From: a virus
Virus record (IMG/VR): IMGVR_UViG_3300047557_002672
Span: 1 to 20,360 of that record
DNA length: 20,360 bases
Reading direction: 5' to 3' (one strand)
Of this stretch, positions 226 to 18,485 are shown piece after piece. The notes below the pieces were generated by a model. It did not search any database and was not told the DNA's origin. It saw nothing but the letters and a program-made list of their open reading frames with translations. The position numbers and the translations under genes are program-made. Within the stretch, counting starts at the first letter, position 1. Each line of letters starts with the position of its first letter.

Positions 226-1866
226 ATGCCTATTAGTTGTCAGATATGTCAAAAAACTTTTGATAAAATAATCACCAGCACACATCTAAAATCACATTCT
301 GTTTCTTCTCATGAATACAAAGAAAAATATGGTGATGAAAGTTTAAGCTGTCCAATATACAGACAAGAACGCAGTATAAAGTACAGCGGAACAAATAATC
401 CCATGTTTGGAAAAAAGCATGATGATTCTGCCAAGGACAAGATCAGTACACTTAATAAAGGCAGAGTAGCTCATAATAAAGGTAAGAAAGTAACTGATGA
501 GCAACAACTTGAAAAAATAAGAACCGCACTGAAAACACGTGATGATAATTATAGACAAAATCAAAATCATCCACGAAAGGGAGCTGTATTAACTGATTTT
601 ACAAAAAGTAAAATAAGGGATGCGATAAAGAATTATGCAAAGGATAATAAGGAAAAAATTAGTGAACGTGCACTGAAAGCAGTGAATACAAAACGTGCCA
701 ATGGATATGATTTAGGTAGCAATATGCGTGGTAAAAAATTGTCTACAAATACAAAAGAATTAATCAGTCAAAAGTCAAAAATTACTGCAGCAAAAAAAAT
801 AAGTGATGCTATAGAACGATATAAAACAAGAGCAGAATCTGCTGGCCTCATAATAAATTCAATAGTTGAAAAAAGAGTTAATTTAACGTGTTCTAAATGT
901 AATGCTGGTTTTATTTTTACGGCCCAATATTTCACTGATTCAAAGTTTAGATTTGATATGTGCCCAGTATGTCGATTATCGCCTACAAAAAGCGCAGATG
1001 AAATTGCAATCTTAGAATATATTAAAACAATTTATAAAGGAGAGGTTTTGAGTGGCAATCGTAGTGTGATTTATCCACTAGAACTAGACATTTATATACC
1101 AGAAATGCAACTTGCGATTGAATATTGCGGGTTATACTGGCACAGTGAAAAACAAGGTAAAGATTCCAAATATCATTTAGAAAAATATACAAAGTGCATG
1201 CAGTTAGGAATTAGACTAATTACTATATTTGAAGATGAATGGATACATAATTCAGATTTAATAAAAAGTCGATTAAATTATATTTTTAAACACACTAATA
1301 ACCGAATAGGTGCACGAAAACTTATTGTTAAACAAATTGAAAATAAAACCGCTCATGAGTTTTGTGATCAAAATCATATACAGGGGCGTGGTCAAGCAAA
1401 TGTATCATATGGATTATTTGATGAAAATATGGCCTTATTTTCTGTTATGACCTTTTCTAAACCCAGTATTTCAAAAGGGTCAACCTCATCAACTGCAAAT
1501 GCATGGGAAATGAATAGGTTTTGCTCTCAAAAAAATACAGTGATTTTGGGTGGTGGATCAAAATTATTCAAAAAGTTTATTGAGGAGTTTAACCCAGCTA
1601 TAGTAATAACATATTCTGATAATAGATGGAATACAGGACAATCCTATAAAAATATGGGATTTAATTTAACAACAACTACGCCACCAAGTTACTGGTATAT
1701 TGATTTTCCAAACATCAAACGAATACATAGATTTTCATTACGTAAAAATGACAAAGATGATCCAAATTTAACAGAATGGCAAAACCGAATACAACAAGGG
1801 TACGATAGAATATGGGACTGTGGAAATAAAAAATGGGAGTGGAAAAATACTTCCACTCCCATCTAA
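226..1866 (+). CDS. Freestanding Vsr-like homing-type endonuclease with MucR-like zinc finger and NUMOD3
   Basis: A 546-residue modular protein. Residues 4-36 form a Ros/MucR-like zinc finger (C5, C8, H20, H24, then YKEKYG). Residues 54-75 match the NUMOD3 DNA-binding motif (GTNNPMFGKKH). A basic helical stretch follows, then a second zinc knuckle (C222, C225, C246, C249). Residues 255-345 are a PD-(D/E)xK-type, Vsr/EDxHD-like nuclease core: E286/D288, E299 and H306 in EYCGLYWHSE, YH at 316-317, FEDEW at 335-339. Residues 365-500 resemble a GNAT-like fold (NHIQG; SDNRWNTGQSYKNMGF). The end carries YDRIWDCG (526-533). An AAAGGGA ribosome site precedes the ATG. It sits between two minus-strand late genes, and no interrupted host gene is seen, so it is freestanding rather than intronic. 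Its final codons overlap the sheath-gene terminator. Nuclease activity is inferred from motifs. Confidence 0.8.
   Translation: MPISCQICQKTFDKIITSTHLKSHSVSSHEYKEKYGDESLSCPIYRQERSIKYSGTNNPMFGKKHDDSAKDKISTLNKGRVAHNKGKKVTDEQQLEKIRTALKTRDDNYRQNQNHPRKGAVLTDFTKSKIRDAIKNYAKDNKEKISERALKAVNTKRANGYDLGSNMRGKKLSTNTKELISQKSKITAAKKISDAIERYKTRAESAGLIINSIVEKRVNLTCSKCNAGFIFTAQYFTDSKFRFDMCPVCRLSPTKSADEIAILEYIKTIYKGEVLSGNRSVIYPLELDIYIPEMQLAIEYCGLYWHSEKQGKDSKYHLEKYTKCMQLGIRLITIFEDEWIHNSDLIKSRLNYIFKHTNNRIGARKLIVKQIENKTAHEFCDQNHIQGRGQANVSYGLFDENMALFSVMTFSKPSISKGSTSSTANAWEMNRFCSQKNTVILGGGSKLFKKFIEEFNPAIVITYSDNRWNTGQSYKNMGFNLTTTTPPSYWYIDFPNIKRIHRFSLRKNDKDDPNLTEWQNRIQQGYDRIWDCGNKKWEWKNTSTPI
1828..1862 (-). terminator. 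Intrinsic terminator of the tail sheath gene, inside the endonuclease ORF
   Basis: Positions 1833-1844 and 1851-1862 form a perfect 12-bp stem with a 6-nt loop (arms ATGGGAGTGGAA and TTCCACTCCCAT). On the minus strand it is followed directly by a T-rich tract (TTTTTATTT). On the plus strand no T-run follows. It starts 21 nt downstream of the sheath stop codon (1886-1884). It therefore terminates leftward transcription of the sheath gene, while the same bases encode the last residues of the plus-strand endonuclease. Confidence 0.85.
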
Positions 1867-1883
1867 AACATTTACAATTTTAC

Positions 1884-4800
1884 TTATACGCCACCACCCG
1901 GTAATGGATCGCCAGTGTTAAGGATACGTATTGGAATATAAATAAATTCAATAGCCTTGACCGGCTTAATTGCTATATCTATCCATAGTTCATTACGATC
2001 TATACGTTCTGGAGTATTATTACTAGTATCGCAAACAACTGCATAGTCATATAGTGCGCGCAGTGTTACGAGAGTTTGCATAAATGAGTCAAATGTTGAC
2101 TGAACGTTTGTTCTTGTTTGATCATCATTTGGTTCCCATAAGAATGGTTTAGCCAAGTTATCTAAGTTGTACTTTAGATAGTTGATTAGGCGTGCAACAT
2201 TTATTCTGTCAAGTGCGCTAGAGACAGGGCTTAGTGTTTTCTGTCCATAAACTACGAGACCACGGCCCGGTATAAATGCAATTGGGTTGATCTTGTTTTG
2301 GTACAGAACATCTCTCTGGCCTTGATTTAGAACGACTGGATCATATTCATCTTCAGGAGTGAGATACCCAACACTTGTAACTCCTGTTACTAGACCTCTA
2401 TTAAACCCAGCTGGAGCAAACCATGGGAAACTTACTTGGTCACTGTATGCAATAGTTCTTAGGGCAATCATGCTTGCTGGAACCATAACTTCACTGCCAT
2501 CAAGGTTTGTTGATAGACCCCATGGGTAATAAACAGCACCATATGGTGTAGAACTTACAAGAGCATCAGGACCATTACTCGCTGCATTAGCTGAGTTATT
2601 TGCCCAGTTTACAAATGCTGTTCCATTTGGTGGAAGTGTAGAAGGTGTATCAGCAACAATAAATGCTATTTCCTTCTTATCAACGTTTAGTGCAATCATT
2701 TCGTCCAAGCATTCAATATAACCTGGGGTTGAAATCAGGTTAAAGAATGTTTGTTCTGCACGGGCATTTTCATTGCTAACAATAGCTGACTGTAATGATC
2801 TTACAATTACTGCACGTTGAGCCGCAGACCCCATGTATGGGCTTCCGTCAGGTCTGTTGCCACTTTCTGTGACCCATCTATCTGTCCACGCACCGGTTGA
2901 CAAATAATTTGTCTTCCATACTTTAACATTGTTAGTGCTATAGCGTGTGTTGAACAGCATCATTCCTGCTGGGTATAGCAGAGCATCAGGAGCATCTGGA
3001 TCTATATAATTAGACAGAACCATATCTCTTGGCTGAGTACTACCATTTTCTAATCCGTCATCATTTGGACGTGCATCCGCAAAGATAATACCACTGCTTG
3101 TAGTTTGATCCGTATTATTCACTGTGACCCATGCTGCGGTCAAAGCGTTGTATCGTTTGATGACCGGATATGGTGTTTCGTTACTGTCAATCCAAATATC
3201 ATAGTCCACTAGTGGTGCCAATGTACTTTGAGTCAATGGCTCAACAGAGCTTATAATAGGACCGTTTGGATCGGTTGCTGGATACATATTACGGTATCCC
3301 ATCCATTGAGAACCATCATTTACCATAATGTCAACACGTAATTGAGTGTTATACCAAAGAGTGCCGTCTTCTGGTGGACCAAATGGCTCTGTTGGACTTG
3401 GTGTATATTCAAGTGCAGCCCAGCTACTTCCATCCCACTGTTTGATAATGTGAACTGCTTGATCAGGTGTGCTGCCACTGGCATTATATTGAACAAATAC
3501 TGTTCCTATTTGTTTTAGGCTACCGAAAGCAGCGTCTGCTGCAGTTGTAGTTGCATACATAGGAACTGTACCAGTATTTGGACGAATATTCAGTGTTCTC
3601 CAAGTATCAACAACATACTGTTTGACTCTCCAATTTGCACCTTGGTTACCTGAAGTAGTGTTGATCCAAATATTTTCACTAGCCATATTTTCCAGAGTAT
3701 TTGGCACAACTAAGGCTGGGTTGTAACCCTGATAAACAAGTTTACGACCAAAGGTTACACCTGCAGGAATACCACTGTCATTCAATGGTGTGCCACGAAG
3801 GTCTTCCAGAATGAAACTTGTTCCATTGCTATTTGTAATCTTTAGGTAATTGTTTAGTCCACTGGTTACTTTAGAGGCTACGATAGGCCCACTTGGGAAA
3901 ACATTGTTATTAATTTCGTCAATTAATCCATCAAGCGTATTGTTTGGCAGGGCTGGAACGTGAACTATAACTGGACCAGTGCCTGGATCAATGCTGAATG
4001 TAACACTCTGTAACCAGTCGCTGGTAAGGTTGAATGTTGCACTAGAGCCAGAACCACCTGTAACGCTAGCAGGGCTGGTTGGGTAAACTGTGTAACTACC
4101 AGGAGTTGTTACTGTAACAGTGTTTACACCCCATGTAAAGTTCACTGTGGCATTAATTCCGGTGCCACTGGTTAGGTTAGCTGATACGTTTGTGCTTGGT
4201 GCAACAACTCCTGTAAACTGTCCAGCTTGTGTGACACTGATGCCAGTAATCACTCCAAGTGCACCAATGCTAGTAACGGTTAGTATGACTGGGGTTGTAT
4301 ATCCACTGCCATTGAATGTTAGAGTATCATTCACGTTATAGCCGCTACCAGGAGCATTTATTGTAACAGAGACGGCTCTTATGCTTGCAACAGTCAAAAC
4401 GCTGGCTGTAGTAAATGTTCCACCTGTTACAGTAAGAGTATTACCCACTGCATACCCTGTACCGGCAGCAGCTACTGTTGCACTACCAGTTTTTAGCGTT
4501 GCTGCAGTATATGTTGGGTTGGCGACCGTACCAGTTACTGAGGCCCAGTAAGTATTGCTTGGATTTATACCAGCATCTTTCCATGGTGTTCCAACGCCAT
4601 ATTGATCACTGATGTCGTTTATTGTAATATCAGTGCCACTATAGTTGGTAATAGTCAGGTAGTTTTGTGAACCAACTGTAGTGATACTTGCTACAGCATT
4701 TGTTCCAGAACCTGAATTCAATTGGGCGTTAATTAGACCGACAAATGAACTTAGAGTTGATGCTGCAAGTGTTATAGTTAAAACGCTGCCTGAGCCAATT

Positions 4801-5927
4801 TTAATTGTGCACTGTTCGCCACTTGTAAATGTAGGATTAGCTGTGGAGCCAGTGATTACACGGGGAGAAGCTTCTCTCCAACCCCAACCAGGATGGCTGG
4901 TATCTGTGCTGCCAATAAGGAACCAATAGTCTTCACTGGAACTATCAGTTTCTAAAGTAATTTTTTCCCAGATTTCATTTTTATAAGTTCCATCAGCACT
5001 AGTTAGTGTATTAATTGCAAAATCACCACTTGTGCCGTATTCAGCTGCAGGTAGGACAACGTTACTTGGTGAAGATGTCAGACCAAGGTTTGTTAAGATA
5101 CCTGCAGTGCTTCCAGTCAGAATAATTTCTTGGTTTATGTCGGTGCTAATAAGACGAAGGTTATATACATCACCATATGAGCTTGCGGTAGGACTATATT
5201 TCTCCATGCGTGCATACACACTAGCTTTTACATTTAAGCGAGCAAGATTTGGGTTATTGTTGATTTTACTGGCAACATCACTAATGCTGTCACCACTTGT
5301 TAAGGCAACTGTAATGCCATTGATTACTAAATTTCCATTTGCACTGATGCAACTGGCACTGCCGCTTATTATTTTTGTGGCACTATAACCTTGTACAATT
5401 CTTTCAAGGCTAGATTCGGTATTGATAACCAGTGGACTGCTAGGTTGCCATGTAAAAGCAGGATTTGGGTTTCCATTACTTCTAAACAGACCAAACGTAC
5501 TAGCACTTAGATCCATCCAGTATTGGCCATTACTTGGTGGGCCAACTGGTTCTGAATCAGAAGGGACTAGCTCTCCAAGGTCAACATCTGCTCTTAGTAC
5601 CCATGCAGTACTAGCAATACCAAGATATTGGTAAAGTGTGAACAAACCTAGCTCATTTAGTTCGTTGCCTTGCTGAACGGTGCCTGCACTACTATAAAAT
5701 ACAGGATTACCGAAGGTCTGCAAGGCATCTCGCTGACTTGTTATAAGCCATAAACGACCATTGTTTGCATCAGTTGTCCCAGGTGCTATTTCAGTGGTAC
5801 TACCGGGCTGTAATTTATTTTTCTGTGTTGCGATAACAATCAAAGGTGTTGTGCCTACAGTTGCTGCTCCGTATTGACTTTCATCAGTAACTGTTACAGA
5901 TACGCCGGGTGAAGTTAAAATTGCCAT
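1884..5927 (-). CDS. gp18: Giant contractile tail sheath protein (T4 gp18-like)
   Basis: At 1347 residues this is about twice T4 gp18 (659). Residues 1-120 are a typical sheath N-terminus (MAILTSPGVSVTVTD; LYQYLGIASTAWVLRA). Residues about 1035-1347 are the conserved C-terminal sheath domain (RSLQSAIVSNENARAEQ; KINPIAFIPGRGLVVYGQKT; RINVARLINYLK; ELWIDIAIKP), which interlocks subunits around the tube. Between them lie about 900 extra residues rich in G, T, S, N and V: three flagellin-hook-IN-like modules (185-273, 371-438, 641-710), GxGY-type repeats (483-630), and several 'G-xx-W' modules (129-161, 315-353, 748-781, 802-840, 849-880, 905-938). The start is supported by AGAGGT upstream and a late-type promoter. 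Product assembles in the host cytoplasm onto the tail tube. The insertion would project from the sheath surface (inference). Confidence 0.92.
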   Translation of the reverse strand: MAILTSPGVSVTVTDESQYGAATVGTTPLIVIATQKNKLQPGSTTEIAPGTTDANNGRLWLITSQRDALQTFGNPVFYSSAGTVQQGNELNELGLFTLYQYLGIASTAWVLRADVDLGELVPSDSEPVGPPSNGQYWMDLSASTFGLFRSNGNPNPAFTWQPSSPLVINTESSLERIVQGYSATKIISGSASCISANGNLVINGITVALTSGDSISDVASKINNNPNLARLNVKASVYARMEKYSPTASSYGDVYNLRLISTDINQEIILTGSTAGILTNLGLTSSPSNVVLPAAEYGTSGDFAINTLTSADGTYKNEIWEKITLETDSSSEDYWFLIGSTDTSHPGWGWREASPRVITGSTANPTFTSGEQCTIKIGSGSVLTITLAASTLSSFVGLINAQLNSGSGTNAVASITTVGSQNYLTITNYSGTDITINDISDQYGVGTPWKDAGINPSNTYWASVTGTVANPTYTAATLKTGSATVAAAGTGYAVGNTLTVTGGTFTTASVLTVASIRAVSVTINAPGSGYNVNDTLTFNGSGYTTPVILTVTSIGALGVITGISVTQAGQFTGVVAPSTNVSANLTSGTGINATVNFTWGVNTVTVTTPGSYTVYPTSPASVTGGSGSSATFNLTSDWLQSVTFSIDPGTGPVIVHVPALPNNTLDGLIDEINNNVFPSGPIVASKVTSGLNNYLKITNSNGTSFILEDLRGTPLNDSGIPAGVTFGRKLVYQGYNPALVVPNTLENMASENIWINTTSGNQGANWRVKQYVVDTWRTLNIRPNTGTVPMYATTTAADAAFGSLKQIGTVFVQYNASGSTPDQAVHIIKQWDGSSWAALEYTPSPTEPFGPPEDGTLWYNTQLRVDIMVNDGSQWMGYRNMYPATDPNGPIISSVEPLTQSTLAPLVDYDIWIDSNETPYPVIKRYNALTAAWVTVNNTDQTTSSGIIFADARPNDDGLENGSTQPRDMVLSNYIDPDAPDALLYPAGMMLFNTRYSTNNVKVWKTNYLSTGAWTDRWVTESGNRPDGSPYMGSAAQRAVIVRSLQSAIVSNENARAEQTFFNLISTPGYIECLDEMIALNVDKKEIAFIVADTPSTLPPNGTAFVNWANNSANAASNGPDALVSSTPYGAVYYPWGLSTNLDGSEVMVPASMIALRTIAYSDQVSFPWFAPAGFNRGLVTGVTSVGYLTPEDEYDPVVLNQGQRDVLYQNKINPIAFIPGRGLVVYGQKTLSPVSSALDRINVARLINYLKYNLDNLAKPFLWEPNDDQTRTNVQSTFDSFMQTLVTLRALYDYAVVCDTSNNTPERIDRNELWIDIAIKPVKAIEFIYIPIRILNTGDPLPGGGV
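4266..4481 (-). repeat. Protein-level GxGY repeats inside the sheath insertion
   Basis: Sheath residues 483-516 and 520-554 are two copies of one unit: a short strand ending AGTGYAVGNTLTV or PGSGYNVNDTLTF, a glycine turn, then VLTVASI or ILTVTSI. Weaker copies follow at about 560-595 (TQAGQFTG) and 604-635 (TTPGSYTVYP). The spacing of about 36-45 residues suggests stacked beta strands. The similarity is at protein level; the DNA copies have diverged. Confidence 0.6.
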
Positions 5928-7514: not shown

Positions 7515-8633
7515 ATGCCACCTCTTAGTTTATGGCGCGGTGTAGCCGTCAAGACAAATGATTACAAATTTATAGACAGAATTGTTTCTGAACAATATAA
7601 AATTGGTGGAACTGAATTTTATATTCATAAGATAATTGGTGTAACACCACAAGGATATGAAGACAAACTAACCGTTAATCTGGACTTGACTGGTAATAAT
7701 GATCCTGCACTTACCATTCAAGACGTATTAAACATGGAAAATAGGGATAGAAAGTACGAAACTACAGTATATAGTTTAAAAGGACACTATCAAGTAAGCG
7801 ACACAGAATTTGATTTAAGACAATTTGGACTATTTTTAACAAACGAAACAATATTCATAACTTTTCATCAAAACGACATGGTTGACCAATTGGGCCGCAG
7901 GCTTATGAGCGGAGACGTAATTGAAATTTTACACCAGCGTGACGATTTGGTTATGGGATCACCTGCCGCTATCAGTAAATATTATGTTGTTGAAGAAGGT
8001 ACACGACCAGCAGAAGGATATAGCCCAACTTGGTGGCCGCATATTTGGAGAGTCAAGTGCAATCCAATCACTGATACACAAGAATTCAGAGATATTCTAG
8101 AGCTGCCAATATTGGATGCCAGTGGAGATCCTGTGCCAAATCCAAACGGGGGAGGAGCAAATGCTACCGTGAAAGATGTCTTAAGTACCAGAGAAGCAGA
8201 GCTTAAAATTAATGATGCATTGGTTGAACAAGCTAACATTGAAGTACCATTTAGATATTTCCAAGCACAACATTTTTATGTTTTACCCAACCAAAATCCA
8301 AATTTCATGGGTCAGGATATATGGACAGGGGATGGTATCCCACCAAATGGTAGCAAGCCAGTGGCAAATGGAAATACATGGCCTAGTAACCCATTAGAAG
8401 GTGATTATTTCTTACGAACAGATTATACACCTCCACAGTTATACAAGAGAGAAGCATCCAAGTGGATACGAATACAAACTGCATGGAGAAACACTTGGAA
8501 ACCTGCAAACCAAACTCTTGCCAGCTTCATTAATAACACAAATATCACAACAAATACTGACGGCACACAAGCCCCAGAACAGCAAAATATTAGAAATGCA
8601 GTTAAACCAAAATTAGATCCAGACATCATATAG
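7515..8633 (+). CDS. gp14: Neck protein (T4 gp14-like) with C-terminal extension
   Basis: 372 residues, longer than T4 gp14 (256). The N-terminal half follows the gp14 pattern: DRIVSEQYKIGGTEFYIHK (21-39), TIQDVLNMENRDRKYE (67-82), FGLFLTNETIFITFH (104-118) and the segment GRRLMSGDVIEILHQRDDL (127-145). Then come KYYVVEEGTRPAEGYSPTWW (155-174) and HIWRVKCNPITDTQEFRDIL. With gp13 and gp15 this protein forms the neck hexamer between head and tail. Residues about 288-325 (NPLEGDYFLRT, then ASKWIRI) resemble the 'G-xx-W' modules of the sheath and gp15, suggesting a surface decoration. The start has an AAAAAGGAAA ribosome site. The gene is divergent from gp13, 101 bp apart, and heads a compact plus-strand group. 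The family call rests on pattern and on the gp13/gp14/gp15 neighbourhood. Confidence 0.68.
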   Translation: MPPLSLWRGVAVKTNDYKFIDRIVSEQYKIGGTEFYIHKIIGVTPQGYEDKLTVNLDLTGNNDPALTIQDVLNMENRDRKYETTVYSLKGHYQVSDTEFDLRQFGLFLTNETIFITFHQNDMVDQLGRRLMSGDVIEILHQRDDLVMGSPAAISKYYVVEEGTRPAEGYSPTWWPHIWRVKCNPITDTQEFRDILELPILDASGDPVPNPNGGGANATVKDVLSTREAELKINDALVEQANIEVPFRYFQAQHFYVLPNQNPNFMGQDIWTGDGIPPNGSKPVANGNTWPSNPLEGDYFLRTDYTPPQLYKREASKWIRIQTAWRNTWKPANQTLASFINNTNITTNTDGTQAPEQQNIRNAVKPKLDPDII

Positions 8634-9293: not shown

Positions 9294-10946
9294 ATGCAAT
9301 ATTGGTATTCAGCACAATTAAGACAGTATAGATTACAATTCATACGTGCATTCAGTAATTTTACTGTAAAAACAGGAAGAGGTGGACCCACTGGTGAACC
9401 AGAATTCATCAGAGTGCCTTGCAGGTACGGTGATTCAACAAGAATCGCTTCAAGTATAGTACGAGGCAACAGTGAAAACAAAATACTTGCTGTTCCATTT
9501 ATCAGTTGCTATATATCCAATCTTGCAATGAGTCCAAACCGTCGTCAGGATCCACAACTTGTAGTGCCGGTTGTAGTAAATGAACGTGCATATAACAATG
9601 AAACACAACGATATACAAATGAAATAGGAAATAGGTATACAGTTGAGCGATATATGCCCGTACCATATGATTTAACAATGCAGGTAGATATCTGGAGTGA
9701 CAATCTTGACATTAAAGAACAACTACTAGAACAAATACTTGTTCTGTACAACCCATCAATTGATATACAAACAAGTGTAAATCCCCTGGACTGGACCGTC
9801 TTGAGTTACATAGAAATGCAGGACTCTATTACATGGTCAAGCAGAAGCATTCCAGTAGGCACAGATAACCCAATTGACGTAGCAAGTTTAGTTTTTAAAA
9901 TACCTATTTGGATTAATCCACCTGCAAAAGTAAAGAAGCAGTCAATAATTCAACAAATAGTTTCAAATATTGTACAGGGGTCAAAAGAAGCCGACGCTGT
10001 TGAATGGAATGAATATCAATTCATAACTAGATCTATTGTTACACCAGGGAATGCAACTATCAAACTATATCCACAAGCTGGTGGCTCCTATCAAATAAGT
10101 TTATGTGATGACAGTTTTGATTCTACTGACAGAGATCATCTTCCAACTATAACATTTGCCGGAACAACACCTAGCTTTTTTAACGGACAACAATTTTTGT
10201 GGAATGGACGCACAATCACAATCAATCATTCCACATTAAATGAAGCTCTCAATGATATAAAGTCAGGACTTACAGGGACAAAACTTAACTGCCAATTATA
10301 TAATAATACATCTCTGCAATTTATAAATTCCGATGGTGGAGATAATATTTTTGAAGATATTGTTCCAGGAAGTCTTGCAGCATTAGGATTACAATCTGGA
10401 ACTTACCAGGGCGGTTCATACGCTTGGTGGAGACTTTTAACGTTGTATGGAAATCTTCAACCATACAGTGAGTTTGGTAGCAATGCAAGCCAGTTACGAA
10501 TAAAAACAACACTAGATTTGGATCAAACAACTACTGATATTATTGGGTGGATATCTCCTGTAGCTACCAACCAAAATATTTTGATATGGACTCCCGATTT
10601 TGAAAGTTTTCCGGCAACATCCTTACCTGATATCACTATGATTGTAAACCCACTACAATCAGGCCCAGGTGCTGAATTACCACCAGCTGCTATAGGACAA
10701 CGATACTTACTTACAGAAAAACCCGCTGAGTCAAGTGCACGGTGGGGAAACATAACTGCACAAGAAAATGATATAATAGAATTTGATGGAAATGAGTGGA
10801 AAGTTTCGTGGAGTGCTGCCGCAAATACCAATGGAGCACAAATTGTAAAAAATAATTTTAGCGGGATTTACTACGTATACAATACATCTTGGACACCATT
10901 ATTACAACAAGAGTATTCACAAGGATATTGGAGACTGTCACTATGA
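9294..10946 (+). CDS. gp15: Proximal tail sheath stabiliser / tail terminator (T4 gp15-like), extended
   Basis: Residues 1-225 match the gp15 layout: YWYSAQLRQYRLQFIRAFSN (3-22), then FIRVPCRYGD (38-47), KILAVPFISCYISNL (63-77), RYMPVPYDLTMQVDIWSDN (119-137), EQILVLYNPSIDIQ (146-159) and a final VFKIPIWINPP (200-210). T4 gp15 (272 residues) caps the sheath and tube polymers and docks the tail to the neck. Here about 320 extra residues follow: a flagellin-hook-IN-like module (285-370, FLWNGRTITI, then AALGL) and 'G-xx-W'-type segments (460-540, PPAAIGQRYLL, EFDGNEWKV). Both types also occur in the giant sheath, its expected binding partner. The gene ends in an ATGA overlap with the nucleotidyltransferase gene. 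The ribosome site is weak (AGAAAG). Confidence 0.72.
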   Translation: MQYWYSAQLRQYRLQFIRAFSNFTVKTGRGGPTGEPEFIRVPCRYGDSTRIASSIVRGNSENKILAVPFISCYISNLAMSPNRRQDPQLVVPVVVNERAYNNETQRYTNEIGNRYTVERYMPVPYDLTMQVDIWSDNLDIKEQLLEQILVLYNPSIDIQTSVNPLDWTVLSYIEMQDSITWSSRSIPVGTDNPIDVASLVFKIPIWINPPAKVKKQSIIQQIVSNIVQGSKEADAVEWNEYQFITRSIVTPGNATIKLYPQAGGSYQISLCDDSFDSTDRDHLPTITFAGTTPSFFNGQQFLWNGRTITINHSTLNEALNDIKSGLTGTKLNCQLYNNTSLQFINSDGGDNIFEDIVPGSLAALGLQSGTYQGGSYAWWRLLTLYGNLQPYSEFGSNASQLRIKTTLDLDQTTTDIIGWISPVATNQNILIWTPDFESFPATSLPDITMIVNPLQSGPGAELPPAAIGQRYLLTEKPAESSARWGNITAQENDIIEFDGNEWKVSWSAAANTNGAQIVKNNFSGIYYVYNTSWTPLLQQEYSQGYWRLSL

Positions 10947-11695
10947 CAAGACATATGTTAACAGAATTACAACGTAAAATAAACATGAAAACATTTACAA
11001 GCATGTTTACCCCAGAAATTAGAAAAGTCATTAAAGCTATGACAAAATATGGATTTGAGGTTAGGATAGTCGGCGGCGCAGTACGTGACTTTATGTTAGG
11101 TAAAGCTCCAAGAGATGTTGACCTAGCAACAAATGCAGACCCAGCTGAAATCATTTATATTTTTGATAGCGAAGGAATTGAATATGACGCCAGTGGAATA
11201 GTTCATGGAACTGTAAAGGCTGTATTTGGAAAAATCAAGGTTGACCTTTCAAGTATAACATACAAACTACGTAAAGATCCTGGTGGTGTAACTGTAGAGA
11301 GAATTAGTAGCTGGGAACAAGATAGTAAAAATCGTGATCTTACTGTGAATAGCATGAGTGTTGATATGGATGGACATTTACATGACTACCAAGATGCATT
11401 AAAAGATTTAGATAACCAGCTAATAAGATTTTGCCCAAATATAGAAAATAGAATTGTTCAAGCCCCAATACATCTGCTTAGATGGATCAAGGGCATTGCA
11501 CACATGGAAAATCCCAAATGGTTAAAAAAAGATAAGGAATTAGTACAAAAACATGCAGATCTTCTTAAAGATATAAAAGATGATAAGCGCGTGCAGCTTT
11601 TGTTAGCAGAACTTTTAAAAAGTCCACATAAAGATAAATTATTTAAAATGATGTGTGACCTTAACATAGCACAAAATCTAGATCTTATTTGCTAA
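10943..11695 (+). CDS. Minimal tRNA nucleotidyltransferase / poly(A) polymerase-like protein (class II head domain)
   Basis: 250 residues from the ATG at 10943. I prefer this to an ATG 18 codons upstream because it makes an ATGA overlap with gp15 and has GGAG 9 nt before it. The class II nucleotidyltransferase signature is intact: RIVGGAVRDFMLG (41-53), catalytic Asp pair in PRDVDLATNAD (56-66), GTVKAVFGKIKVDLSS (89-104), then NRDLTVNSMS (130-139), DYQDALKDLDNQLIRF (148-163) and a neck-like segment NRIVQAPIHLLRWIKG (169-184). Bacterial CCA-adding enzymes are about 400 residues, so most of the body and tail, which hold the tRNA, are missing. It may repair tRNA 3' ends or add A residues; which nucleotide it adds cannot be told. 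The tRNA gene in this window already encodes CCA. Confidence 0.8.
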   Translation: MTRHMLTELQRKINMKTFTSMFTPEIRKVIKAMTKYGFEVRIVGGAVRDFMLGKAPRDVDLATNADPAEIIYIFDSEGIEYDASGIVHGTVKAVFGKIKVDLSSITYKLRKDPGGVTVERISSWEQDSKNRDLTVNSMSVDMDGHLHDYQDALKDLDNQLIRFCPNIENRIVQAPIHLLRWIKGIAHMENPKWLKKDKELVQKHADLLKDIKDDKRVQLLLAELLKSPHKDKLFKMMCDLNIAQNLDLIC

Positions 11696-11723: not shown

Positions 11724-12566
11724 ATGCAAGAAAAAGATTTGATCATTGGTGCAGTTACTAATTATAACTGGGACAAAATAAAATACTGGGCTAATAGCAT
11801 TGTGAGGTCTGGATTCAAAGGAGACAAGGTAGTATTAGTCTTTAATGGACCAGCAGATGTTATTAAACACTTACATGACCTTGGATTTGAAACATTATTT
11901 TTTCAAAGAGACGATGTAGGTAATTGCTACGCAAATATGCCTGTTGTTATAGTAGTAGATAGATTTTTTTACCTATGGCAGTTTTTATGTTCTCGCCCCA
12001 ATACTTATAGATATGTTATTTCCACTGACGTTAAGGATGTAGTTTTTCAAACAAATCCATCTGAATGGTTGCTAAACAATATTGGTGATTATGAATTGTT
12101 AGCATCAGGAGAGAGTTTGACATATCAAAACGAACCATGGGGTGATGACAACCTTAAAGGTAGCTTCCCATTTATATATGAAAGCTTGAAAACTAAGCCT
12201 ATATGGAATTGCGGAGTACAAGCTGGTCGCCAACAAGCAATACAAGATTTATGGATTCAATTATATCTTATTTCAAAAACAGCAGGTAGACATAATGGAG
12301 ATCAAGCAGCGTACAATATGTTATTGAATTCTCGCCCATGGAAACTAATAACAAAGTTTACCATGAGCGAAAGTGGGTGGGCCTGTCAAGCAGGAACCAC
12401 AGTAGACCCTCTTAAAATTGAAAGTTTTAAACCACACCTATTAGAACCCACTCCTGTTTGGAGTAATGAACTGTCACATACAAGTCAGGGACTTATTCAC
12501 GCAGTAGTTCATCAGTGGGACAGAGTTCCAAACTGGCATGCAGACATTGAACGGAGATATGGATAA
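11724..12566 (+). CDS. GT-A type glycosyltransferase
   Basis: 280 residues. It begins with a beta strand and nucleotide-sugar binding start (LIIGAVTNYNW, 6-16) and continues with VVLVFNGP (36-43). A DxxD metal-binding-like motif lies at 102-105 (STDVKDVVFQTNP), equivalent to the DxD that holds Mn2+ and the UDP- or GDP-sugar. Then come IWNCGVQAG (160-168), HNGDQAAYNMLL, the acceptor-side Asp region, and a C-terminal HAVVHQWDRVPNW. The pattern DVKDVVFQ with a late VHQWDR recalls eukaryotic-type glycosyltransferase-like families, but I cannot name one. It is the first gene of a five-gene operon and overlaps the next gene by one base (TAATG). Donor and acceptor unknown. The upstream promoter leaves almost no leader. 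Confidence 0.7.
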   Translation: MQEKDLIIGAVTNYNWDKIKYWANSIVRSGFKGDKVVLVFNGPADVIKHLHDLGFETLFFQRDDVGNCYANMPVVIVVDRFFYLWQFLCSRPNTYRYVISTDVKDVVFQTNPSEWLLNNIGDYELLASGESLTYQNEPWGDDNLKGSFPFIYESLKTKPIWNCGVQAGRQQAIQDLWIQLYLISKTAGRHNGDQAAYNMLLNSRPWKLITKFTMSESGWACQAGTTVDPLKIESFKPHLLEPTPVWSNELSHTSQGLIHAVVHQWDRVPNWHADIERRYG

Positions 12567-13558
12567 TGCAAATAAATGTAAATCTGGATACGCTATACGA
12601 AGAACAAGATAAAGCAATTAAAAATGTGCGACAAATGCCTACTTACTTACCTGGAAAAAGTATAGTTACAAGCTCATACAGGCAAGAATTGCCCAGCACA
12701 TTTGTTCTGCTTACAGAGTTGAATAGACTAGAGTTCAACATTCCAATTGAAGTTTTCTATAGAGAAAATGAACTTAACGATGATGAAATAAGTGAGTTAA
12801 CAAAAATAAATCCTGCATTAATTCAATGCAAAAAGATCGCAAGTGAATGCCCAAATTTTACAGATAGATATAATAATAACAAAGGGTGGGGTGTAAAAAC
12901 CTATGCTATAGTTGAAAGCGCATACCAAGAAAATTTGTGGATTGATGGAGACAATGTCCCAATTAAAAATTGTATGTATCTTTTTGATGATCCAGAGTAT
13001 AAAACAAAAGGATCCTTGTTCTGGAGAGATGTATATAGTATAGACAGATCAAACCAGTATTGTGATACCAGTTCTTTCTGGAAAATATTTAATGTTCCAC
13101 CAAATGATGGTGAGCCATTTGAAAGTGGACAATTTATTTTGAATAAACCGGTAGTATGGAACCAAATCAATTTAATGCTACATTTCACCGACAATAGTAA
13201 CATCTATTTTAATTTTGGCGGAGATGCCGAATGCTGGAGAATGGCATGGCAATTATACTCAATCAAGAATAATCAGTATTTTTCAGCATGGAATTATCAT
13301 GCCAGCGAAGAAGTGCCTTATGGGTTTATTCCATATGGACCATTCCATAAAGGAGCGGTAAATCCCTGGAAAAAATATGGGGGAGGTTCTGTTATGGTCC
13401 AGAGAGATCGTAATGGTCATGAAATTTTCAACCATAGAAACTTAACTAAATGGAACTGGCAAAAAAATATCTTTAATGAAGATATCACAAATGAGCAAAC
13501 ATATCACATGATCATCAATCATTTAAAATACAAATATAATATTAAGGATAAAACATGA
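12566..13558 (+). CDS. Mannosyltransferase-like GT-A protein (MNN2/MNT-type fold)
   Basis: 330 residues resembling the fungal alpha-mannosyltransferase group (Pfam Mannosyl_trans3). Key segments: IVTSSYRQELPSTFVLLTEL (33-52), IPIEVFYRENEL (59-70), WGVKTYAIVESAYQENLWID (108-127), a DxD-type metal site D127-G-D129-N with the family's following VPI, LFDDPEYKTKGSLFWRD (139-155), ESGQFILNKP, and an acidic FGGDAECWRMAWQL near residue 220. The family transfers mannose from GDP-mannose, but sugar identity in phages is unknown. The start overlaps the preceding stop by one base, with GGAG upstream. It ends in an ATGA overlap with the next gene, so translation of all three glycosyltransferases is probably coupled. 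No membrane segment or signal peptide is visible; it would act in the cytoplasm. Confidence 0.8.
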   Translation: MQINVNLDTLYEEQDKAIKNVRQMPTYLPGKSIVTSSYRQELPSTFVLLTELNRLEFNIPIEVFYRENELNDDEISELTKINPALIQCKKIASECPNFTDRYNNNKGWGVKTYAIVESAYQENLWIDGDNVPIKNCMYLFDDPEYKTKGSLFWRDVYSIDRSNQYCDTSSFWKIFNVPPNDGEPFESGQFILNKPVVWNQINLMLHFTDNSNIYFNFGGDAECWRMAWQLYSIKNNQYFSAWNYHASEEVPYGFIPYGPFHKGAVNPWKKYGGGSVMVQRDRNGHEIFNHRNLTKWNWQKNIFNEDITNEQTYHMIINHLKYKYNIKDKT

Positions 13559-14703
13559 CCACAGATATGACACTATTCAAATATCCAACAGAATGGAATA
13601 TTAAAAGAGAACCAGCCAGACCCAAAGAACTTAGAGTTTGTAATTTTGAAAAAACATATGATTATGACACACTCTGGAATGACATAATACAAATTAACAA
13701 TAATACTATTGTTTGTATAGGACCTCCATTATATCAAACAGTTGATTTTTTAGAACAAAACTGTAAATTTATGGATGATGAAAATCAATTTCTTGATTGG
13801 CAACACATTTCTCTTGATAGGGTATCAGTTGTAGCATTTCGCGTTACAAAGCCTATTAAATTCCTAAAAATTACATGCTACAATAATCAATATATCTTAC
13901 CCGTAAACAAACCAAGTTTTGACTTTCAAAATAAAAAGGTTGCCGTTACAATATGCAAGAATACTGAAATTTCATGGATTAAACAGTGGTTGGAATATCA
14001 TAAGGTAGTGTACAATCTTGAGGGTGCATTACTGTACAATAACCAGAGCACCATGTACACAACACCGGAGTTACAGGATGCTCTACAACGAGAAGATATG
14101 AAAGTTACAGTCGTTGATTACGATGTTCCTTTCGGTACACTTGGTGGGGGAGCATGGGAATGGGATGGAAAGAAAGGTGATTCCTTGCCATGGGACAGTG
14201 ATTTTTCCCAATATGTAATGTTAGAGCATGCCAAGTGGCGATACCTGTTCTGTGCAGATCTTGTTTTAAATATGGATCTGGATGAACTCCTACTCACAAA
14301 TGGCAAGACATTAGATGAACTTAGTTATATCTGCAAAAATGGTGATTATTCTACACTACTTTATCAAGGTATTTGGATTGAACCTGTAAACGTATATACT
14401 CAGACCGAAGCAAAATATGAAAACCCAGATGTCAGACACTTTAAAAATTATTATATGACTGCTAACCAAGTTCACAAAGGTGTTCCGATCAAATATATGC
14501 TGTGTCCCGGCAGAAATATAACCAATCAATGGCTTCTTCACAGAACGTCTGGACCATATATACATACTAAAGATGTTACTTATGGACATTTCATGGCAAT
14601 GAACACTGGTTGGAGTTGGAAACGAGACACATATACTCAAGATAAGGAATTACTAGTACCAGTTGAAGAATTAAAAAATAACCTTAACAAAGTCTGGAAA
14701 TAA
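13555..14703 (+). CDS. GT92/GT2-like glycosyltransferase
   Basis: 382 residues. An N-terminal part of about 125 residues of unknown role precedes a GT-A domain. The domain opens with KVAVTICKNTEISWIKQWLE (128-147), then YHKVVYNLEGALLYNNQST (148-166). It carries the metal site N-M-D241-L-D243-E244, as in families of the GT92/DUF23 and Glyco_tranf_2_4 type, and a late HTKDVTYGHFMAMNTGW, in the place of the family's acceptor-side His. AAGGAT lies upstream of the ATG, which overlaps the previous gene by 4 bp. The next gene begins one base after its stop. The sugar donor cannot be predicted. Confidence 0.78.
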   Translation: MTTDMTLFKYPTEWNIKREPARPKELRVCNFEKTYDYDTLWNDIIQINNNTIVCIGPPLYQTVDFLEQNCKFMDDENQFLDWQHISLDRVSVVAFRVTKPIKFLKITCYNNQYILPVNKPSFDFQNKKVAVTICKNTEISWIKQWLEYHKVVYNLEGALLYNNQSTMYTTPELQDALQREDMKVTVVDYDVPFGTLGGGAWEWDGKKGDSLPWDSDFSQYVMLEHAKWRYLFCADLVLNMDLDELLLTNGKTLDELSYICKNGDYSTLLYQGIWIEPVNVYTQTEAKYENPDVRHFKNYYMTANQVHKGVPIKYMLCPGRNITNQWLLHRTSGPYIHTKDVTYGHFMAMNTGWSWKRDTYTQDKELLVPVEELKNNLNKVWK

Positions 14704-14704
14704 T

Positions 14705-15652
14705 ATGACCAAGATCGTTTACATTTTAGGATGCCTAGGATTTATTGGACGACATATAACAAAGAAATGTCTTGATAATGGATGGGCAGTGATGGGCATA
14801 GATAAAGAAACATATGCTGCAGATAAAGCGTCAATTGAACTTTTTAAAGCATATAAAAACTTTACATACCAGAAAGCTGATATTCGTACACTAGACAAAA
14901 TATATGATTGCGACTTTATTATTAACACTGCAGCTGAAACTCATGTAGACAATAGTATTGAAAGTAGTAAAGAGTTTCTTGATACCAACGTTTACGGTGT
15001 GGTCAACATATTAAATCTTATATGCAGAAAGCAAAATTATAATCGGCCAATCTTTTTTCAATTTAGCACTGATGAAGTTTATGGAGATGCTAAACATGAT
15101 AAATTTACTGAAGAAAGTGTACTTTTCCCTAGCAATCCATATTCGGCTAGCAAAGCAAGTGCAGACATGATTATTCAAGCATGGCACCGAACATATAACA
15201 TACCATATGTGATTTTACGCCCAACAAACAACTATGGTATTGGCCAAAATCCAGAAAAATTTATACCAAGAGCCATAAAATATCTTACATTAAATAAAAA
15301 ATTTCCATTATACAACAATGGTAACGTAAGCAGAACATGGCTTCATGTAGAAGATACAACAGCTGCACTTATGCATATAATTGAATCTGGAAAATATAAT
15401 ACTGTGTTCAATATAAATGGCACTTATCACGATTCTAATTTGAATGTCTTCAAAAAAATTCTGAGTGAAATGGGATACAATCCAGAAACCTGGAAAGATT
15501 TTATACTTCCCAACACTGAAAGACCTGGACATGATTTAAATTATTGGCTTAATGATGAAAAGCTTCGGAATTTAGGTTGGAAAAACACCCAAGATTTCGA
15601 TGCCGAACTTAAAAATATTGTCAAACATTACAATACTGTTTTTTATTGGTGA
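14705..15652 (+). CDS. rmlB: dTDP-glucose 4,6-dehydratase-like SDR enzyme (RmlB-like)
   Basis: 315 residues of the extended short-chain dehydrogenase/reductase family. The NAD-binding turn is GCLGFIG (9-15) and the second strand ends in D33 (GIDKETY). NTAAETHVDNSIESSKEF (74-91) and the sequence NVYGVVNIL follow. The dehydratase active site is STDEVYGD (121-128), with T122-D123-E124, plus Y146-xxx-K150 (NPYSASKASADM). RPTNNYGIGQNPEKFIPR and RTWLHVEDT are further RmlB hallmarks. It converts dTDP-glucose to the 4-keto-6-deoxy sugar that leads to rhamnose, fucosamine or related sugars. No rmlA, rmlC or rmlD is in the window, so the phage may use host enzymes. It begins one base after the GT92-like gene. 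A related NDP-sugar dehydratase cannot be excluded. Confidence 0.83.
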   Translation: MTKIVYILGCLGFIGRHITKKCLDNGWAVMGIDKETYAADKASIELFKAYKNFTYQKADIRTLDKIYDCDFIINTAAETHVDNSIESSKEFLDTNVYGVVNILNLICRKQNYNRPIFFQFSTDEVYGDAKHDKFTEESVLFPSNPYSASKASADMIIQAWHRTYNIPYVILRPTNNYGIGQNPEKFIPRAIKYLTLNKKFPLYNNGNVSRTWLHVEDTTAALMHIIESGKYNTVFNINGTYHDSNLNVFKKILSEMGYNPETWKDFILPNTERPGHDLNYWLNDEKLRNLGWKNTQDFDAELKNIVKHYNTVFYW

Positions 15653-15655
15653 TTT

Positions 15656-16627
15656 ATGAAACTTTTATTTGTTGTACATAGATATGCTCCATTTCCTGGA
15701 GGATCTGAAGTATACGTTCAAAATATGGCTGAAGAGGCTGCTAGTCGAGGGCACATGGTTGCAGTATTAGCTGGTGAACATCAAGGTGACTATAATGGGA
15801 TACATGTCACAAGTAACCCGGCAATCCTTTTAGGCGCATGGGATTTAATATTTGTTCATGGCGGCGACGTAAATGTGCAAAACTATGTATTAAATAATAT
15901 AAAAAATATCCCAAGTCCAGTTTTATACTTATTAGTCCTGCCAAGTGAAAGTCAAATTTGTTTAAAAGGATTAACTACATCCGCACTTATAGGATACAGC
16001 ACACATGAAGATTATCAACACTGTTTGAAATATCAAGTAGAAAAAAAATCAGTACACATACGACATGGTATAGTACCAAGTAGTTCAAATGGCAAAGTTG
16101 GTTTTAAAGAAAAATATGGTATCACCAAAAAAATGTTTCTTACATGTGGTGGTTATTGGCCTAATAAAGCAATAAAAGAATTGTGTGATGTATTCCAAAA
16201 GGCAACTCTAGATGATTCAATTCTCGTAACAACTGGATATGACAATAGATATGGCATTATGCCAAGTCAATCAGATTATATTCTTCCGTTGTTACTGGAT
16301 GATCGACAGGAAGTGCTTAATGCAATGAAAGAAGCTGAGTGCTTGCTTATGCATAGTACCTCTGAAGGATTTGGACTAGTTTTATTAGAATCAATGCTGA
16401 ATGATACGCCCTGGATATCAAGAAATATCGCAGGAGCAAAGTTGATGAAAGATTATGGCCAAACATATGAAACTGACGATGAGTTATTGAATCTATTAAA
16501 AAACTTTGATAGATCAAAGTTTGATACTCAACTGAATAAAGCATATGTTCTTAGCAATCATACTGTTAAAAACACAGTAGATGACATTGAAAATGCATGC
16601 ATACATTTTCATAAAAATTTAAAATAG
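15656..16627 (+). CDS. GT-B glycosyltransferase (GT4-like)
   Basis: 323 residues with both GT-B Rossmann domains in shortened form. The N-terminal domain begins LLFVVHRYAPFPGGSEVYVQ (3-22), with the GG-x-E acceptor loop typical of GT4, followed by RGHMVAVLAG. The C-terminal donor domain has FLTCGGYWPNKAIKEL (161-176), SILVTTGYDNR, and the E-x7-E motif E237...E245 in SEGFGLVLLESML, whose first Glu contacts the donor sugar. GT4 enzymes are retaining transferases using NDP-sugars. At 323 residues it is a little short of the usual 350-400, mostly in the first domain. It is the last gene of the sugar operon, starting 3 nt after rmlB stops. It converges with the tRNA gene, only 9 bp away. No plus-strand terminator is seen after it. 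Confidence 0.85.
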   Translation: MKLLFVVHRYAPFPGGSEVYVQNMAEEAASRGHMVAVLAGEHQGDYNGIHVTSNPAILLGAWDLIFVHGGDVNVQNYVLNNIKNIPSPVLYLLVLPSESQICLKGLTTSALIGYSTHEDYQHCLKYQVEKKSVHIRHGIVPSSSNGKVGFKEKYGITKKMFLTCGGYWPNKAIKELCDVFQKATLDDSILVTTGYDNRYGIMPSQSDYILPLLLDDRQEVLNAMKEAECLLMHSTSEGFGLVLLESMLNDTPWISRNIAGAKLMKDYGQTYETDDELLNLLKNFDRSKFDTQLNKAYVLSNHTVKNTVDDIENACIHFHKNLK

Positions 16628-16766: not shown

Positions 16767-18485
16767 TCATCTATACGTTTTTAAAAACTTAAGTTGACCA
16801 CAATCCCAAATTCTATCATATCCTCTACTTTGCATTATTTCCCATTCTGAGCAACTACTATCATACCCATTTTTTACCAGATTACTTTTTGTAAAATTAA
16901 ATCTATGTTCTCGCCTGCTGTAATCTGTAGTATACCAATATCCAGGGGTTAAATTACCTTTATTAATCAACTTAAAATTTAGTTTTGAATATAAATTACC
17001 GTTACTCCACCTTGCATCTGCGTATGACAAAATAGCATTACATTGAGTATTTTTTTGATAAAAGTTCAATAATTTTCCGGCTCCACCAACTATTTGAGTT
17101 GAGGTTGCATATCTAATAAGTTCGCGTTGATCATTATGTGTATGATTTAAAAATACCCTGGGTTTACCAAAAGACATTGCTGACACTAAATTATTTTCAA
17201 AAAATAATCCAATGTGACAATTAGCAGGTGCTGCCCCTTGAATATGGTAATTTTTATAAAATTCATCAGCAACTGATGCATCAATAAAATTTATTTTACA
17301 AGATCTTGCACCAATACCATTCTTGTTTACAGCAAATATTGATTTTAATTTGGATTTAACTATTTCTTTCTTAAAATTCCATTCGTCGCTGAATATGGTT
17401 ATTAATCTATATCCTTTATCAGCACACAATTTCATTTTTTGGATGTGATAGTCTTTATTTTTCTTACCGGAACATTCACTATGCCAGTACAATCCACAAT
17501 ATTCAATTGCTATTTTACAGTCATCACTTACTATGTCAAGTTCTAATGGAAATATTATTCTCCGATCACGTTGTCGTACAGATAAATTTAATGTTTTTAA
17601 AAATTCAAAAACTTCATTTTCTTCACCACTTTTATAATTATGTATAGTGGGATGACACGATTTACAAATGGGAAGATGACCATTATCAATATATGTTTCA
17701 AAAGATGCTGAACAATTTAAACATTTGAATGTGTACCAAATGTGCCCTGTCACACCTTTGTAGTCTTCTGGTGCCATACTAAATTCTGTATGACACACAT
17801 TTCTAAATTTATTATTCAATTGTTGAAAATCTACATTACTAGATTTTCTTTTTATCCAAGTTGTTTTGGAAATTTCCGACAAACTTTTTCTTCTGGAAAG
17901 AGTTTTACTAATGTTATCAACACCATATTTGCTTAGTAAGGTAGATTTACGTTTTTCATTCGTGGCAGTAATGTTTGAAGGGTTTTCAACACCATACTTA
18001 GCCATCATAGTTTTTTTAAATAACATAACTTGTTTTTCTACAAGACTTTTATCATTGTAAAACTCTTTATGTTTCTCTACGGATATAGGAAGCTGTCCTG
18101 CATTACCTATTCCGTATTTTTTAAAATTTGTTTCTATTCTTTTATTCTGTATATTATCTTTAGTCTCATCACTGAGTTCTGCGTGGTGTTTTGAAATTTT
18201 AGTACTGACTGCTTCTTTGGCGCAGTTGCATTCACGAGTCAAACCGCAGTAACCATATCCATCATTAATACCCTTAAACTTTTTAATTTTTCCATGTGGT
18301 GAACATATATTAGTTTGAATATTGTTAATATAAGCATACACTCGTTCTGATATAGTAGGATTACCAGCCAAGTTGGCGGTTATATCCAATAACCATGTAT
18401 GTAGTTCACGGTTCTTTTTAATGTACAGTCCAAGTTGTTTGGGATTATATTTTTCTACTATGTTTTGAATTAATTCTTTATTCAT
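16767..18485 (-). CDS. Vsr-like homing-type endonuclease, second of a tandem pair
   Basis: 572 residues. The N-terminal domain (1-100) with RELHTWLLDI and a Cys cluster (C61, C80, C86, C88) matches the start of the neighbouring 602-residue protein. KYG repeats (Y124, Y164, Y187) follow, typical of phage endonuclease DNA-binding regions. A zinc knuckle (C255, C258, C274, C277) leads into the nuclease core: E315/D317 in PLELDIV, EYCGLYWHSE (328-337), DYH (345-347) and FSDEW (365-369). A GNAT-like C-terminal part has YHIQG (413-417), GKPR, GGAGKLL and SYADARWSNGNLY (487-499). The end carries GYDRIWDCG. The core is very close to that of the left-end endonuclease (226-1866). Its ATG overlaps the upstream gene's TGA (ATGA), so translation is probably coupled. 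Activity is inferred; nothing in the sequence gives the target. Confidence 0.82.
   Translation of the reverse strand: MNKELIQNIVEKYNPKQLGLYIKKNRELHTWLLDITANLAGNPTISERVYAYINNIQTNICSPHGKIKKFKGINDGYGYCGLTRECNCAKEAVSTKISKHHAELSDETKDNIQNKRIETNFKKYGIGNAGQLPISVEKHKEFYNDKSLVEKQVMLFKKTMMAKYGVENPSNITATNEKRKSTLLSKYGVDNISKTLSRRKSLSEISKTTWIKRKSSNVDFQQLNNKFRNVCHTEFSMAPEDYKGVTGHIWYTFKCLNCSASFETYIDNGHLPICKSCHPTIHNYKSGEENEVFEFLKTLNLSVRQRDRRIIFPLELDIVSDDCKIAIEYCGLYWHSECSGKKNKDYHIQKMKLCADKGYRLITIFSDEWNFKKEIVKSKLKSIFAVNKNGIGARSCKINFIDASVADEFYKNYHIQGAAPANCHIGLFFENNLVSAMSFGKPRVFLNHTHNDQRELIRYATSTQIVGGAGKLLNFYQKNTQCNAILSYADARWSNGNLYSKLNFKLINKGNLTPGYWYTTDYSRREHRFNFTKSNLVKNGYDSSCSEWEIMQSRGYDRIWDCGQLKFLKTYR

Follow-up and report, generated by a model that had tools for sequence, protein, structure and literature searches.

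The 20,360-nucleotide stretch of DNA examined here (positions 1 to 20,360 of IMG/VR virus record IMGVR_UViG_3300047557_002672, hereafter the window) is part of the genome of a jumbo myophage. Its nearest cultured kin are Sinorhizobium phage Phosso and Agrobacterium phage Atu_ph07, followed by PA5oct, CBB, Munch and 121Q, and no near match to the window is present among 50,697 phage records. The window encodes a tail sheath protein of the T4 gp18 type and a tail sheath stabiliser/terminator of the T4 gp15 type (gp15), in which a preliminary description of the sequence had noticed three segments and one segment, respectively, that resemble flagellin hook IN motifs. We describe these four segments, termed M1 to M4, using profile comparison, phylogenetic trees and structure prediction. 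The features concerned are the following.

1884..5927, minus strand: tail sheath protein (T4 gp18-like), 1347 amino acids (PHROG_10581, E 7e-255; PF17482, E 5e-16)
5064..5375, minus strand: M1, sheath residues 185-288, a Flagellin_IN module (IN motif at I222-N223, LGL at 281-283)
4563..4844, minus strand: M2, sheath residues 362-455, IN asparagine N400
3753..4019, minus strand: M3, sheath residues 637-725, probable duplicate of M2
9294..10946, plus strand: tail sheath stabiliser/terminator (T4 gp15-like), 550 amino acids (PF16724, E 6.4e-20; PHROG_11196, E 2e-92)
10128..10418, plus strand: M4, gp15 residues 279-375, an insert without the IN asparagine

Phage_sheath_1C (PF17482) matches sheath residues 1237-1334 with 59 bits, above its cut-off of 26.9, and residues 447-643 of T4 gp18 align to sheath residues 1129-1334 (E 5e-32). 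The conserved sheath core is in two parts, approximately residues 1-115 and 1045-1340, with extra domains between them, and M1, M2 and M3 are all located between these two halves. T4-gp15_tss (PF16724) scores 71.8 bits over gp15 residues 3-251 (cut-off 25). In T4, gp15 forms a ring that caps the head-proximal end of the sheath, and the gp15-type protein of the window is predicted to be the corresponding cap ring. Unlike flagellar proteins, the two proteins that carry the modules, a contractile sheath protein and a sheath terminator, have no D0/D1 helical core with its coiled coils; they are phage proteins bearing a flagellin-IN-type domain and are not flagellins.

The segments as originally delimited correspond exactly to positions 5109-5375, 4614-4817 and 3798-4007 on the minus strand (sheath residues 185-273, 371-438 and 641-710) and to positions 10146-10403 on the plus strand (gp15 residues 285-370), with all of the quoted motifs present. 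The LGL stretch said to end the first sheath copy exists as well, but its position, 281-283, is ten residues beyond the end given for that segment, and M1 is therefore longer than first described (approximately residues 185-288). At the same profile position M2 and M3 carry DAGI and DSGI, and the relative L014 carries FENLGF (L numbers are our handles for related loci). The module as now delimited comprises approximately 90 amino acids and starts with two strands and a helix, after which come two or three more strands and a turn of the LGL type. Positions 4020-4562 (sheath residues ~456-636), which separate M2 from M3, contain repeats of the type GTGY..GNTLTV / GSGYNVNDTLTF with weak matches to Gp18_dom_I (PF22639, E 0.012), PHROG_26741 and PHROG_32129.

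Kinship among the four segments was assessed by scoring profile pairs with hhalign against column-shuffled decoys, with 400 decoys in a run with narrow profiles and 50 in a run with enriched profiles, the M4 profile being enriched with L074, L075 and L036b. M2-M3 scored 98% and M2-M4 86-95% (95% enriched), and with enriched profiles M3-M4 scored 91% and M1-M4 67%, the M1-M4 alignment spanning 81 columns from NG to LGL. The M2-M3, M2-M4 and M3-M4 scores beat every decoy, and in the enriched run this was true of each pair. With narrow profiles M1-M2 reached 3% and M1-M4 19%, and in the decoy run with narrow profiles 8 of 400 decoys equalled M1-M2 and 2 of 400 equalled M1-M4. Searches with single profiles and sequences gave a similar picture. 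For example, a hidden Markov model (HMM) of M2 finds M3 (E 1e-8) and that of M3 finds M2 (E 9e-9), BLASTP joins M2 to M3 with E-values down to 2e-10, and BLASTP also joins M3 directly to M4 (E 5e-6 over 83 residues) when the divergent gp15s of L074 and L075 are used as bridges. When the M4 profile was run over 100-residue windows of the sheath and gp15, only M2 and M3 stood clearly above background in the sheath, with the M1 windows ranking next and lying close to background; in the scan with the M1 profile, the top window outside M1 was gp15 276-375. An HMM built solely from gp15 modules and searched against 2477 open reading frames (ORFs) from 47 loci had its best matches outside gp15 in sheath M1, M2 and M3 (E 0.002-0.06), among them the M1 of Atu_ph07 (E 0.002), the M2 of L023 (E 0.004) and the M3 of L004 (E 0.05), all in register, and a mixed M2-M4 profile meets the M1 of L013, L014 and L018 (E 2-4e-4). 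Judged by sequence comparison, the homology of M2, M3 and M4 is firm, and M1 joins this group through the M4 profile and through its fold.

AlphaFold models covered M1 and M2 together (pLDDT 87.0) and M4 (pLDDT 86.7), and all three modules are predicted to share the order strand-strand-helix-strand-strand. M2 and M4 have one extra strand, and a short helix lies at the LGL end of the modules, so that M1 reads strand-strand-helix-strand-strand-helix; in the model, M2 comprises strands at 195-200 and 206-209, a helix at 215-228, and strands at 234-241, 244-251 and 257-262. A Foldseek search of M4 against 350,542 PDB chains returned flagellar proteins at all of ranks 1-12, with probabilities of 0.66-0.99 for the flagellar matches. 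These twelve include the Campylobacter hook-filament junction-cap complex, the D2/D3 domains of P. aeruginosa FliC, a bacterial cell-surface flagellin, and C. jejuni and V. cholerae filaments. H. pylori FliD holds rank 16, with an rmsd of 2.9 over 92 columns. Immunoglobulin (Ig)-type chains appear from rank 13 on with probabilities of at most 0.35, and the Ig sandwich is thus not the best match. For the M1-M2 model, ranks 1-5 are flagellar (Campylobacter hook-filament-cap chains, P. aeruginosa FliD and V. cholerae flagellin), and in the search of viral models M4 matches the tail sheath of another phage best (rmsd 1.8 over 102 columns). M1, M2 and M4 therefore share a predicted fold that resembles the outer domains of flagellar proteins. 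The preliminary description had proposed profile-profile comparison and structure prediction as tests; the former gave similarity above decoys and the latter gave agreeing folds for M1, M2 and M4, in agreement with its view that a single type of module recurs in all four segments.

The likeness to the flagellin hook IN motif is borne out as well, with two limits that concern M2-M4 and M4. Flagellin_IN (PF07196), which has a Pfam gathering cut-off of 22.7 bits, matches 15 of 19 M1 homologues at E <= 1 (best E 1.1e-6). The window's own M1 falls just below the cut-off at 17.7-19.5 bits, those of Phosso (32.3 bits) and Atu_ph07 (26.6 bits) lie above it, and in the complete genomes of these two phages the M1 site is the sole match. 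All 15 sequences compared keep the IN asparagine in M1 (N223) and in M2 (N400), and most relatives keep the IN in M3, whereas M4, in departure from Flagellin_IN, has lost it (IK/IR; DIKS/DIRS). M2 to M4 as a group also fall under Pfam detection, with weak matches in 3 of 37 members (best E 0.027). No flagellar protein emerged when sequence profiles were searched against PDB chains, and the flagellar link of M2-M4 is consequently a purely structural one.

The distribution of the modules in related phages provides a relative order of their acquisition. M4 interrupts gp15 cleanly between ISLCD and AWWRLL, and in the gp15s of Phosso, Atu_ph07, PA5oct, Munch, 121Q and L037 it is missing, with the flanks joined directly. 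In a tree built from the gp15 core with the module removed, the 15 carriers group together (99/96) and all six non-carriers fall outside, which indicates that M4 was gained once. The sheaths of Phosso and Atu_ph07 contain M1 and an M2-like segment, and these phages have neither M3 nor M4. Since M1 and an M2-like segment are thus already present in sheaths accompanied by an M4-less gp15, the sheath copies are older than the gp15 copy. In the sheaths of L013-L015, M2 and M3 adjoin with no GxGY-repeat spacer, the tandem state expected if M3 arose by duplication, while in the window's clade approximately 180 residues of GxGY-repeat sequence lie between them. In one relative, L036, M4 has been duplicated inside gp15 in a lineage-specific event: a second copy at residues 492-579 (E 5.8e-14) is closest to the first copy of the same protein (39% identity, sister 100/96), and in the gp15s of L030-L033 the same site is occupied by an unrelated beta-rich insert (~504-574).

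The preliminary description had suggested exchange of modules, or possibly co-assembly of surface knobs, between two proteins that touch in the virion. The same kind of module is indeed found in two genes only a few kilobases apart, as would be expected if continuing recombination swapped modules between them, but we consider such swapping highly improbable. On the module tree the M2, M3 and M4 copies group by position and not by phage (M4 clade 97/86) with no copy of one type nested in another, DNA matches from copy to copy extend over no more than 24-27 bases (78-83% identity), and gp15 gained its module once. Recent exchange at the DNA level was likewise rejected, as the modules have neither long DNA repeats nor aberrant G+C content. 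The copies have therefore been inherited vertically for a long time, and any transfer between sheath and gp15 was single and old, so that what stands of the exchange suggestion is one ancient shared ancestry. Contact between the two carriers is also not a special circumstance, as the module is carried by other structural proteins. A 391-amino-acid protein of L004, an IMG/VR relative represented by a 452,799-base contig, contains the module (E 4e-4 for one copy, with a second discerned by eye), as does the structural protein gp181 of PA5oct (L081 1147-3120; flagged in its record as detected by ESI-MS/MS; E 0.002-0.04), and in phage ctWb16 the module is seen structurally in other proteins among the Foldseek viral models. 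Pfam called no module in PA5oct gp181 or in the L004 protein. Separately, this 391-amino-acid protein (L059/L060, from the L004/L008 genomes) appears to contain two modules in tandem. Among the 50,697 phage records, tblastn with M4 found nothing convincing, and with the M1 of Phosso it found only Phosso and Atu_ph07. The idea that tail whiskers, known from CBB and Atu_ph07, are a product of the module finds no support, since CBB is whiskered but has no modules and the whiskers of Atu_ph07 are reported to be mainly capsid-associated.

As a whole, these results are best explained by four copies of one flagellin-IN-type domain, three inserted in the sheath and one in gp15, an explanation to which we give a probability of about 0.72. 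A number of points weigh against it. Even with enriched profiles M1 is weakly tied by sequence to M2 (5%) and M3 (14%), and the column-shuffled decoys lose local strand-helix patterns that the sliding-window control keeps in part. PF07196 has no match by sequence in the window's M2, M3 or M4, and the modelled folds are those of M1, M2 and M4. The Foldseek E-values against PDB are modest (0.006-0.3, best 0.006-0.014) and all exceed 0.001, for which reason the flagellar match rests on the agreement of top ranks and their probabilities. Finally, L037, whose gp15 groups with those of Phosso and Atu_ph07, has a sheath without modules, which clouds the parsimony of the history given above.

The low M1-M2 and M1-M3 scores, together with the place of M1 apart on the module tree (a weak branch, 45/98), are what would be seen if M2-M4 were one phage family and M1 a Flagellin_IN domain of independent origin with which they share the fold alone. 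We find this possible but doubtful given the 81-column M1-M4 alignment that outscores all 50 decoys, the M1 of Atu_ph07 as best non-gp15 match of the M4 HMM, the recovery of three further M1 copies by the mixed M2-M4 profile, and a fold of M1 that agrees with those of M2 and M4. A less probable view is that the segments are generic beta-rich (Ig-like) decoration domains of phages in which the flagellin likeness and the IN motif are convergent. It would accommodate the failure of PF07196 to detect M2-M4 and the Ig chains lower in the Foldseek list, and it accords with the usual description of extra domains in large sheaths as Ig-like (PMC9230969). It does not readily account for the above-threshold PF07196 matches in the M1 of Phosso and Atu_ph07, for the order of flagellar before Ig chains, or for a central helix with an invariant IN asparagine, which is no Ig feature.

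If the four modules are indeed related inserts of flagellin-IN type, M3 would be a tandem duplicate of M2, and M4 would stem from an M2/M3-like copy or share a common origin with it. Because of the insertion of the sheath modules between the core halves and the analogous place of flagellin outer domains, we infer that all four may be exposed on the outer surface, pointing away from tube and core, and be dispensable. In other sheaths the portion between the core halves is described as lying away from the tube and is thought to add stability or adhesion (PMC9230969), and flagellin outer domains, which surround a core formed by both termini of the chain, are involved in adhesion and in filament stability in viscous media (PMC10256154). 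By analogy with these domains and with phage Ig-like domains, the most likely role of the modules would be that of a non-essential surface decoration, one that stabilises adjacent subunits and/or has a weak affinity for glycans of the host or the environment.

The modules share with the Flagellin_IN and outer domains of FliC and FliD an IN motif in the central helix, the strand-strand-helix-strand-strand order, occurrence in repeated copies and a site between the conserved halves of a protein that builds a filament, in addition to the PF07196 matches of M1 and the Foldseek matches of M4 and the M1-M2 model. Among phages, the closest counterpart is provided by the multi-domain jumbo sheaths (type 3, with five or more domains), such as that of Atu_ph07 (PMC9230969), which belong to the same family and have domains in mid-core. 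That paper describes the extra domains as mostly Ig-like, and its remark on flagellin concerns the overall plan; in the passages retrieved, neither a flagellin hook domain nor a link between sheath and gp15 is named. Phage Ig-like domains (Fraser et al. 2006, cited by PMC9230969 and PMC5259590) are likewise promiscuous small beta domains thought to aid adhesion; they differ in fold and are reported there to spread between phages, whereas the modules described here are vertical within their group. In literature outside subscription papers and preprints, we found no phage paper that names Flagellin_IN, 'flagellin hook IN' or 'flagellin-like domain'. Sheaths with extra domains are known, as are promiscuous decoration domains of phages; this literature contained no flagellin-IN-type domain common to sheath and terminator.

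These observations suggest a kinship between the domains that cover phage tails and those that cover flagella, one decoration module tying together two helical extracellular machines, the flagellum and the contractile tail. The extra outer domains of large sheaths are usually called Ig-like; assignment of some of them to the flagellin-hook-IN type indicates where they came from in evolution and a role that can be tested, makes stepwise gains traceable across sheath and terminator, and gives annotators a name for regions of jumbo-phage structural proteins that are at present blank. A bolder reading, which we regard as unlikely, is that jumbo phages captured a flagellar outer domain and spread it over the whole tail exterior up to the head-proximal cap. 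Were this so, tail and flagellum would show related surfaces, and the domains might aid attachment to the host envelope or particle stability in viscous media, as is the case for the outer domains of some flagella.

Several further features of the locus were observed. A second repeated module, rich in tryptophan (G..W.D/W.N...W), is apparently present in the sheath at residues ~125-165, 846-885 and 905-940 and appears to recur in a neighbouring virion protein (ORF 7515-8633). Directly downstream of gp15 lies, as judged by eye, an ORF resembling CCA-adding enzymes/poly(A) polymerases (10889-11695, plus strand), followed by glycosyltransferase- and NAD-sugar-epimerase-like ORFs (11724-16627, plus strand). 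The tail genes are flanked by three related homing-endonuclease-like ORFs (226-1866, plus strand; 16767-18485 and 18482-20290, minus strand) that share IEYCGLYWHSE and YSDNRW-type motifs, and in PA5oct an annotated Hef-like homing endonuclease adjoins the sheath gene. The sheath of L006 diverges abruptly at its C-terminus after approximately residue 1180, being ~66% or more identical to its relatives elsewhere, which reflects either a recombinant sheath gene or a chimeric contig.

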